A stretch of 64,000 bases of DNA from Rhodoferax potami (GTDB taxonomy: Bacteria; Pseudomonadota; Gammaproteobacteria; Burkholderiales; Burkholderiaceae_C), in contig NZ_JAVBIJ010000001.1 in NCBI RefSeq assembly GCF_032193765.1, positions 992,001 through 1,056,000 of the forward strand, given 5' to 3'. The translations under genes were made by a program, and so were the position numbers. Of this stretch, positions 40,823 to 45,519 are shown one piece after another. The notes beneath the pieces were generated by a model that did no database searches, was not told where the DNA came from, and saw nothing but the letters and a program-made list of their open reading frames with translations. Every line of letters begins with the position of its first letter. Position 1 is the first letter of the stretch.

Positions 40823-43213
40823 ATGTCTGAACTTTTCAATGCGACCGACCTGGTCGTGCCTTTCGAGCGCTTGCGCATGACGGACGTCGAGTCCGTAGGC
40901 GGCAAAAACGCCAGCTTGGGGGAGATGATTTCCCAGCTTCCGCAAGGCGTCCGGGTCCCAACGGGCTTTGCGACGACCGCCCACGCATTTCGCCAATTCC
41001 TGGCCCACGACGGCCTGGCCGACAAGATCAGCGCCAAGCTGAAGACACTGGATACCGAAGACGTGCGCGCTTTGGCAGTCGTCGGAGCCGAAATCCGCTC
41101 CTTGGTTGAAGCTCAGCCTTTCCCTGCTGATTTAGAGCAGGCGATTCGCGAAGCTTTTGTGACGTTGTCTGCGGGTAATGACCAAGCCAGCTTTGCGGTG
41201 CGCTCATCTGCTACTGCCGAAGACTTGCCTGACGCGTCTTTTGCCGGTCAGCAAGAGACTTTCTTGAATGTGGTGGGCATTGAAGACGTGCTTCACAAAA
41301 TGAAAGAGGTGTTTGCCTCCCTGTACAACGATCGCGCGATCAGCTATCGCGTCCACAAGGGCTTTGCCCATGATGTAGTGGCTTTGAGTGCCGGTGTGCA
41401 GCGCATGGTGCGCTCAGACTTGGGCGCGGCCGGTGTGATGTTCACTATCGACACGGAATCCGGCTTTAACCAAGTGGTGTTCATTACCTCCAGCTACGGT
41501 CTGGGGGAGACCGTGGTGCAGGGCGCTGTGAACCCTGACGAGTTCTATGTGCACAAGCCCATGCTCAAAGCGGGCAACCGTGCAGTGATTCGCCGCAATT
41601 TGGGCTCCAAACTTTTGCAGATGGTGTTCACCAGTGCCGAAGAGAAGGCAGCTGGCGGCAAGCTGGTTAAGACGACCGATGTACCCACCGAACTGCGTAA
41701 CCGCTATTCCCTGACCGATGTGGATGTGGAGCAATTGGCCAAATACGCCTTGGTGATTGAAGAGCATTACGGCCGTCCGATGGACATCGAATGGGGCAAA
41801 GACGGTATTGACGGCCAGCTTTACATCCTGCAGGCGCGCCCTGAAACCGTGAAAAGCCAGGCCGGCACAGCCGCTGAGTACCGCTACAAGCTCAAAGGCA
41901 AGGGCAATGTGGTGGCCGAAGGCCGTGCCATCGGTCAAAAGATCGGCACCGGGCCGGTGCGGATTGTTCACAACATCAGCGAGATGGACCGGGTGCAGGC
42001 GGGCGATGTGCTGGTGACCGACATGACGGACCCCAATTGGGAACCGGTGATGAAGCGCGCCAGCGCAATTGTGACCAACCGGGGTGGTCGTACCTGCCAC
42101 GCGGCCATCATTGCGCGCGAGTTGGGTATCCCAGCCGTGGTGGGTTGCGGCAACGCCACCGACCTTCTCAAGGAGGGCATGCTGGTCACCGTGAGCTGTG
42201 CAGAGGGTGATACCGGCTTTATCTACGATGGACTGCTGGAGACAGAAATCTCTGAAGTACAGCGCGGTGTGATGCCGGAGATTCCGGTGAAGATCATGAT
42301 GAACGTGGGCAACCCCCAACTGGCTTTCGACTTTTGCCAGTTGCCTAACGAAGGTGTGGGCTTGGCGCGGTTGGAGTTCATCATCAACAACAACATCGGA
42401 GTGCACCCCAAAGCCATTCTGGACTACCCGAATGTAGATGCCGATCTTAAAAAGGCGGTGGAGTCGGTGGCACGTGGACATGCATCGCCTCGCGCGTTTT
42501 ATGTGGATCGGGTGGCAGAAGGGGTTGCCACCATTGCAGCAGCGTTCTGGCCCAAGCCGGTGATCGTGCGTTTGAGCGACTTCAAGAGCAACGAGTACCG
42601 CAAACTGATTGGTGGCAGCCGCTACGAGCCTGAAGAAGAGAACCCGATGCTCGGCTTCCGTGGTGCTGCGCGCTATATCAGCACCGAGTTTGGCGAAGCC
42701 TTTGCCATGGAATGTGAAGCCCTCAAACGGGTTCGCAATGAAATGGGACTCACCAATGTGCAGGTGATGGTGCCTTTCGTTCGTACCTTGGGCCAAGCCA
42801 AGCGGGTCACCGAACTGCTAGGGCGCCACGGGCTGCGTCGGGGCGAGGCCGGTCTCAAGCTCATCATGATGTGCGAGATTCCGAGCAATGCCATTCTGGC
42901 GGACCAGTTCCTGGAGTACTTCGACGGCTTCTCCATCGGTTCTAACGATCTGACTCAGCTCTCCTTGGGGCTGGATCGCGATTCCGGCCTTGAATTGCTG
43001 GCGGCTGACTTCGATGAGCGCGACCCCGCTGTCAAGGCCCTCATCACGATGGCGATCGACGCTTGCAAGCGCCAGGGCAAGTATGTGGGTATCTGCGGCC
43101 AAGGGCCTAGCGACCACCCTGACTTCGCCAAGTGGCTGGAGCAACAAGGGATTTCTTCTATCTCCCTGAACCCCGACTCGGTGATCGCCACCTGGCAGCA
43201 ACTCGCGGTCTGA
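40823..43213 (+). CDS. ppsA: phosphoenolpyruvate synthase
   Basis: PpsA makes PEP from pyruvate and ATP for gluconeogenesis. The 796-residue protein has an N-terminal ATP-grasp domain (SVGGKNASLGEMI and FAVRSSATAEDLPDASFAGQQ) and a swivelling His domain (GGRTCHAAIIARELGIPAV). The Thr before Cys-His in that domain is the PpsR target, and a TIM-barrel C-terminal domain has GSNDLTQLSLGLDRD. The stop shares its last base with the symporter ATG (TGATG). The 215-bp divergent region 40608-40822 contains only promoter-like TACAAT at 40685 and no gene. Confidence 0.97.
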   Translation: MSELFNATDLVVPFERLRMTDVESVGGKNASLGEMISQLPQGVRVPTGFATTAHAFRQFLAHDGLADKISAKLKTLDTEDVRALAVVGAEIRSLVEAQPFPADLEQAIREAFVTLSAGNDQASFAVRSSATAEDLPDASFAGQQETFLNVVGIEDVLHKMKEVFASLYNDRAISYRVHKGFAHDVVALSAGVQRMVRSDLGAAGVMFTIDTESGFNQVVFITSSYGLGETVVQGAVNPDEFYVHKPMLKAGNRAVIRRNLGSKLLQMVFTSAEEKAAGGKLVKTTDVPTELRNRYSLTDVDVEQLAKYALVIEEHYGRPMDIEWGKDGIDGQLYILQARPETVKSQAGTAAEYRYKLKGKGNVVAEGRAIGQKIGTGPVRIVHNISEMDRVQAGDVLVTDMTDPNWEPVMKRASAIVTNRGGRTCHAAIIARELGIPAVVGCGNATDLLKEGMLVTVSCAEGDTGFIYDGLLETEISEVQRGVMPEIPVKIMMNVGNPQLAFDFCQLPNEGVGLARLEFIINNNIGVHPKAILDYPNVDADLKKAVESVARGHASPRAFYVDRVAEGVATIAAAFWPKPVIVRLSDFKSNEYRKLIGGSRYEPEEENPMLGFRGAARYISTEFGEAFAMECEALKRVRNEMGLTNVQVMVPFVRTLGQAKRVTELLGRHGLRRGEAGLKLIMMCEIPSNAILADQFLEYFDGFSIGSNDLTQLSLGLDRDSGLELLAADFDERDPAVKALITMAIDACKRQGKYVGICGQGPSDHPDFAKWLEQQGISSISLNPDSVIATWQQLAV

Positions 43214-45519: not shown

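Follow-up and report, generated by a model that had tools for sequence, protein, structure and literature searches.

A putative calcium-type loop, replaced by a cysteine pair in some relatives, in external loop 4 of a fused VC_2705-family symporter of Rhodoferax potami

Why would a bacterial sodium/solute symporter keep a calcium-type loop in what is predicted to be the lid of its outer gate? The question is raised by a gene in a 64,000-nucleotide stretch of Rhodoferax potami DNA (assembly GCF_032193765.1, contig NZ_JAVBIJ010000001.1, positions 992,001 to 1,056,000; the window below means this whole stretch), where the open reading frame 43213-45519 on the + strand encodes 768 residues. An initial annotation had read it as a calcium-gated acid symporter with an EF-hand; its observation is confirmed by our analyses and its interpretation is partly supported. 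We consider it probable that the gene encodes a Na+-coupled monocarboxylate symporter of the VC_2705 family (TIGR03648), joined to its small subunit in a single polypeptide, and that its external loop 4 (eL4) is held by a Ca2+ loop serving as a structural staple. The parts of the protein are as follows.

43213..45519, + strand: fused DUF4212 and VC_2705-family sodium/solute symporter, 768 residues (translation of the reading frame and profile matches)
43231..43419, + strand: DUF4212/TIGR03647 small-subunit domain, residues 7-69 (profile matches; two predicted helices, 10-29 and 43-70)
43489..43548, + strand: additional helix at the N terminus of the large subunit, roughly residues 93-112, the end of model helix 79-112 (from the model, with a presumed orientation)
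43579..45489, + strand: large-subunit match to TIGR03648, residues 123-759, with the fold of the sodium/solute symporter (SSS) superfamily (profile match and fold matches)
44179..44568, + strand: helical insert, residues 323-452, between core helices 5 and 6 (model, block predicted local distance difference test, pLDDT, 84-96; probably periplasmic from topology)
44800..44967, + strand: eL4, connecting core helices 7 and 8, residues 530-585 (model)
44875..44910, + strand: Dx[DN]xDG-type loop DVNADGVLQFAE, residues 555-566 (sequence and conservation)
45007..45021, + strand: A599-x-x-S602-T603, similar to the signature of the Na+ (Na2) site in SSS transporters (kept in 143 of 143 frames)

The fusion of a normally separate small subunit to the transporter, proposed initially, is borne out by both halves of the chain: residues 7-69 match DUF4212 with 56.9 bits (cut-off 30) and the NCBIfam small-subunit family TIGR03647 with 54.0 bits (cut-off 26.05), and residues 123-759 match TIGR03648 with 660.7 bits (cut-off 320.75). 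Fold matches, together with A599, S602 and T603 kept in all 143 family frames, place the protein in the SSS superfamily with its LeuT fold; A599-x-x-S602-T603 is presumably the Na2-site signature of SSS transporters, and Na+ would be the coupling ion. These 143 distinct frames include the window gene, its paralogue and 19 other fused members from the genus, and were formed by dropping eight loci below the family line (L029-L031, L081-L083, L131 and L152) and the second frame of L026. The predicted model of the fused protein has a mean pLDDT of 88.8 and a predicted template modelling score of 0.89.

The loop at residues 555-566, DVNADGVLQFAE, has ligands 1, 3, 5 and 12 and the glycine at position 6 of a canonical 12-residue EF-hand loop. 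It is the sole match to the pattern D.[DN].DG.[ILV]...E among the 124,957 six-frame residues of the window, and the pattern occurred once in 20000 shuffles of the protein. The initial annotation had proposed to look at the conservation of D555, N557, D559 and E566 in homologues: all four are among the 75 invariant columns of a 98-row protein alignment, D-x-N-x-D-x6-E is kept in all 121 sequences of a set made up of the query plus the 120 best of 7998 matches (P0001-P0121), and the ligands are kept in 80 of 80 named-record loci. Across the wider family, Dx[DN]xD is found in 135 of the 143 frames (with Gly6 in 127 of the 143), members without the insert among them, and in many members from outside the betaproteobacteria a stretch of variable length stands in the loop, followed by a Glu aligned with E566. 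At the edge of the family, six other SSS rows (L029-L031 and L081-L083) show an alignment gap at the loop site, and L152, a non-family SSS protein, has no loop as judged by eye; L131, with 281 bits just under the TIGR03648 cut-off, has D-x-N-x-D there. As a side observation, L131 (from G456) suggests that the loop may extend past the family as drawn; another is that the SSF gene of L152 has an overlapping downstream frame that resembles, by eye, a CBS/nucleotidyltransferase protein.

Two AlphaFold models place the loop between two short strands and between core helices 7 and 8 (in detail, strand 551-553, the loop, a short turn 564-566 and strand 567-569), so it lies between two membrane helices and not within one, the placement that would have spoken against the early reading. 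Because both models flank the loop with two short strands, it is, on predicted structure, a loop of the Dx[DN]xDG type, whose sequence pattern it also fits, and not an EF-hand: the pattern noticed initially is real, whereas the helix-loop-helix of a true EF-hand is absent from the predicted models, and none of the three Pfam families matched up to E = 10 is an EF-hand family, in a search where HMMER filters drop most weak matches. Known Dx[DN]xDG calcium loops resemble this one in their ligand pattern and in surroundings other than helix-loop-helix, and they may serve a structural or a regulatory purpose (Rigden et al. 2011, PMC3123361, in the text available from it); the main text of that survey never mentions a transporter or symporter. 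In related transporters, eL4, which links core helices 7 and 8, helps to close the outer side (PMC7918813, in an extract).

A first clue to an alternative to the loop was cysteine in four loop-lacking members, exactly two in each at the loop site; none of the remaining 139 of the 143 rows has a cysteine in those columns. A test on new rows drew on 199 genomes of the order of one of these members, of which 91 matched, and the best 30 loci and 20 lower-ranked ones were read: 35 of these 50 matches have the pair, 14 the loop or a near variant, one neither and none both. Excluding the three genes behind the idea (L234, L235 and L237) leaves 32 with the pair, 14 with the loop and one with neither among 47; 11 of the 50 rows score less than 550 on our own profile and may fall outside TIGR03648 (6 pair, 4 loop-like and 1 neither). 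All in all, the 190 distinct rows comprise 150 with the loop (146 in strict form; the variants are L049, L267, L272 and L279), 36 with the pair, 4 with neither and 0 with both. The cysteines stand at one site with a spacing of 14 in 36 of 36 pair rows, and loop rows have no cysteine within the eL4 window; where pair rows do match the loose or strict loop pattern (L238, L240, L241, L242, L254, L257, L268 and L271), the matches are all downstream of the second cysteine. The pair genomes are kin of the same phylum and another class, and their carriers are therefore probably alphaproteobacteria. Searched with a cysteine-pair protein, plasmids gave 292 records, all under 60% identity and with no close named relative among them, and a search of viral contigs gave one relative, L063. 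The cysteine-pair proteins L127 and L129 also have additional sequence close to the C terminus, seemingly inserted between their final two predicted helices.

We suspect that loop and pair are exchangeable staples of eL4, made of Ca2+ in one case and of a disulfide in the other, and that a structural role is likelier than gating by Ca2+. The transporter would work by Na+-driven alternating access in the manner of SSS proteins, with eL4 as the lid that closes the outer side; Ca2+ bound at the Dx[DN]xDG loop would tie the turn of the lid together and keep it in working shape, and in some relatives, probably the alphaproteobacteria, a disulfide between the two cysteines would do the same job in the same place. 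Periplasmic Ca2+ is usually plentiful, and since the site would face the periplasm, it would probably be occupied for much the greater part of the time. As a disulfide cannot report calcium, the function that the two devices share is likelier to be structural.

Several points weigh against this staple, however. It is built on sequence and predicted fold, and its presumed sidedness on the fold, charge counts and the cysteine argument. The glycine at loop position 6 gives way to another residue in 82 of the 121 close homologues (64 His, 9 Arg and 9 Gln), so weaker binding of Ca2+ is to be expected there. Four rows, moreover, manage with neither device: L017 and L074 have lost the position-3 ligand and gained no cysteines, in L130 (from G225) eL4 is cut to a few residues and lacks the loop, the cysteines and two conserved tryptophans, and L278 has neither loop nor pair. 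Finally, several backbone branches of our tree have low support.

The last point touches the alternative that survives best, in which the cysteine pair has nothing to do with the loop and belongs to another eL4 lineage, the mutual exclusion reflecting common descent and not replacement. We find this unlikely, though well worth weighing. A quick tree, from which eL4, the insert and the ends had been removed, puts most pair rows in neighbouring branches; several of its backbone supports are low, and the fewest loop/pair state changes are only 4, a count that serves as a guide only. On the other hand, the loop rows form four separate groups among the pair rows, and the spacing is 14, at the same place, in all 36 pair rows.

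The calcium gating proposed initially, with periplasmic Ca2+ altering eL4 and switching uptake with the calcium outside, we hold to be quite unlikely. It draws on the loop's place in eL4, which helps to close the outward pathway in related transporters (PMC7918813, in extract), on ligands invariant in 98 aligned proteins and on the regulatory role that such loops may have as an alternative to a structural one (PMC3123361, in the text available). A sensor, however, should not tolerate the cysteine pair that replaces the loop in 36 of 190 rows; the loop is also single, without a paired EF-hand, many close homologues have a degraded position 6, and periplasmic Ca2+ is, as a rule, high. The replacement favours a structural staple over gating, with regulation by Ca2+ the less likely role.

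Also quite unlikely, in our view, is a loop that holds a different cation, or no cation at all, and owes its conservation to folding, or to contacts made with the insert or the small subunit, as a rigid acidic turn. In favour of this, many members have a residue other than Gly at position 6, the identity of the metal is deduced from sequence and a small subunit is fused to or near almost all of the 143 frames, but D1, N3, D5, the hydrophobic residue 8 and the acid 12 are kept while their neighbours vary, pair members L126-L129 have the small subunit as well and the loop is also present in insert-free members.

A bolder version of the staple would describe an SSS subfamily with an interchangeable periplasmic clip, Ca2+ loop or disulfide, in which the Ca2+ versions also sense calcium in the envelope and gate monocarboxylate uptake for gluconeogenesis through the neighbouring PEP synthase; this we regard as speculation with little probability.

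The staple has eL4 facing the periplasm, and the question of sidedness also arises for the hydrophilic insert, of cytosolic size, that the initial annotation had noticed within the transporter core. The insert is there: 637 residues match TIGR03648 over 534 profile positions, which means a real insert of roughly 100 residues, and in the model it spans about 130 residues, approximately 323-452, with helices between 327 and 437. It is also found in unfused betaproteobacterial relatives, with at least 90 residues across the span in 80 of 80 named-record loci, and is short in most other frames of the 143-frame sample. As for location, the periplasmic side is indicated both for the insert and for the loop, so that cytosolic calcium would not be the signal. 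In the SSS fold, the gap between core helices 5 and 6 faces outside, so the insert should be periplasmic, and on our own topology assignment, inside segments contain 20 Lys and Arg in 128 residues and outside segments, leaving out the insert, 6 in 124; within the insert, 18 Lys and Arg are balanced by 18 Asp and Glu in 130 residues. Fold, charge counts and the cysteine argument together suggest a periplasmic insert and eL4, and on the topology and the cysteine pair we rejected a cytosolic position for either. The insert also matched dynein weakly (E about 5e-4), which we put down to coiled-coil composition.

The fusion has a different distribution. In the genus, a single match spanning both domains was found in 80 of 100 genomes (a hand count, requiring a start at residue 12 or before and an end at residue 685 or after), which rules out a one-off event; fusion is a genus-level trait, and both it and the operon with ppsA are ordinary for the genus. 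In two of these 80, G686:C14:74179-76449 and G701:C110:4292-6583, a TAG falls within the matched symporter frame and may be a sequencing error or the sign of a decaying gene. The 143 family frames divide into 20 fused ones, which all come from loci of this genus, 120 with a separate small-subunit match nearby and 3 for which none was found; among the 80 named-record loci, the corresponding numbers are 4 (L154-L157), 62 with a separate small-subunit match and 14. All of the best 120 of 7998 relatives have both Pfam domains, and the organism-named ones are mostly Rhodoferax. The genome has two SSF-family genes, the fused one and an ordinary two-gene copy elsewhere, both of the VC_2705 family, and the two genes of this family are sometimes fused. 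The extra N-terminal hydrophobic helix (hydropathy above 1.2 at the expected place) is present in 119 of 119 scored rows with the insert as against 13 of 86 insert-free rows, 18 of 223 rows being unscored as they lack the anchor motif. By the model, it would put the N terminus of the large subunit in the cytoplasm, the side expected of the C terminus of the small subunit, and is thus a likely precondition for fusion. As fusion, insert and loop differ in taxonomic range, they are not one invention. With the subunit stoichiometry set at 1:1, the fused protein should help structural work.

The surroundings of the gene bear on its substrate and contain the following features.

43211..43215, + strand: TGATG, the ppsA stop and the symporter start, overlapping by one base (sequence)
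40823..43213, + strand: ppsA, PEP synthase, upstream and co-directional (putative, assigned by eye from its sequence)
39786..40775, - strand: ppsR-like regulator of PEP synthase, pointing away from ppsA (assigned by eye, with an uncertain start; BLAST matches)

The overlap with ppsA reported initially thus amounts to one base. ppsA adjoins all 20 distinct fused genes and 6 unfused relatives (in flanks of about 1.5 kb, so that absence elsewhere is weakly informative) and lies near 26 of the 80 named-record loci. Family and neighbour gene lead us to guess at a short-chain monocarboxylate as substrate, and a two-gene Shewanella member of the family reportedly transports lactate. The protein falls well short of the ActP cation/acetate symporter family (TIGR02711; 124.4 bits against a cut-off of 1099.25), a score that leaves acetate as a possible substrate. 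No Rfam match was found within 39500-47200 of the window, and a scan of the locus for promoters and terminators was uninformative.

How does the protein compare with known systems? With the TIGR03648/VC_2705 family and its partner TIGR03647, it shares scores above the curated cut-offs and the Dx[DN]xD loop of most frames, and it differs in its single chain, the betaproteobacterial insert and the extra N-terminal helix. The ActP/YjcH-type acetate permease and the MctC-type monocarboxylate symporters (SSS, TC 2.A.21) belong to the same superfamily and have the likely substrate class, but the protein is far below the cut-offs of both. ActP, too, has a small membrane protein, of the DUF485 type, encoded alongside it (PMC5715377, in the text available from it). 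Among PutP, SiaT, SGLT1/2 with MAP17, SMCT1 and CHT1, the fold of the solved ones matches that of our protein, and the solved SGLT2 has MAP17 as a partner where ours has the small subunit; in four PDB profile alignments, the first part is matched, and the alignment resumes at about the equivalent of P585, just after eL4. We know of no Ca2+ loop in eL4 of PutP, SiaT, SGLT1/2, SMCT1 or CHT1. In open-licence papers, DUF4212 was mentioned in none, and calcium in the VC_2705 family in no title or abstract start that we found; a putative loop of the Ca2+ type that marks eL4 across the family, with a cysteine pair in its place in other relatives, appears to be without a report in that literature. The matter has wider reach, since eL4 moves as part of the outer gate in a large transporter fold that includes human sugar, iodide and choline transporters. 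The apparent natural set of metal-clip and disulfide-clip proteins offers a ready-made test of how rigid the lid needs to be, and the poorly characterised VC_2705 family gains a first testable mechanism.

Some further features of the locus can be noted. Downstream, at 45608-48687 on the + strand, lies what by eye is an rpsF-priB-(rpsR)-rplI-dnaB-like cluster; 18 of the 20 distinct fused genes are followed by an rpsF match, L011 and L022 being the two with none. Beyond the ppsR-like gene, at 38492-39832 on the + strand, is encoded a coiled-coil-like protein of 446 residues whose C-terminal part, judged by eye only, is DUF2325-like.
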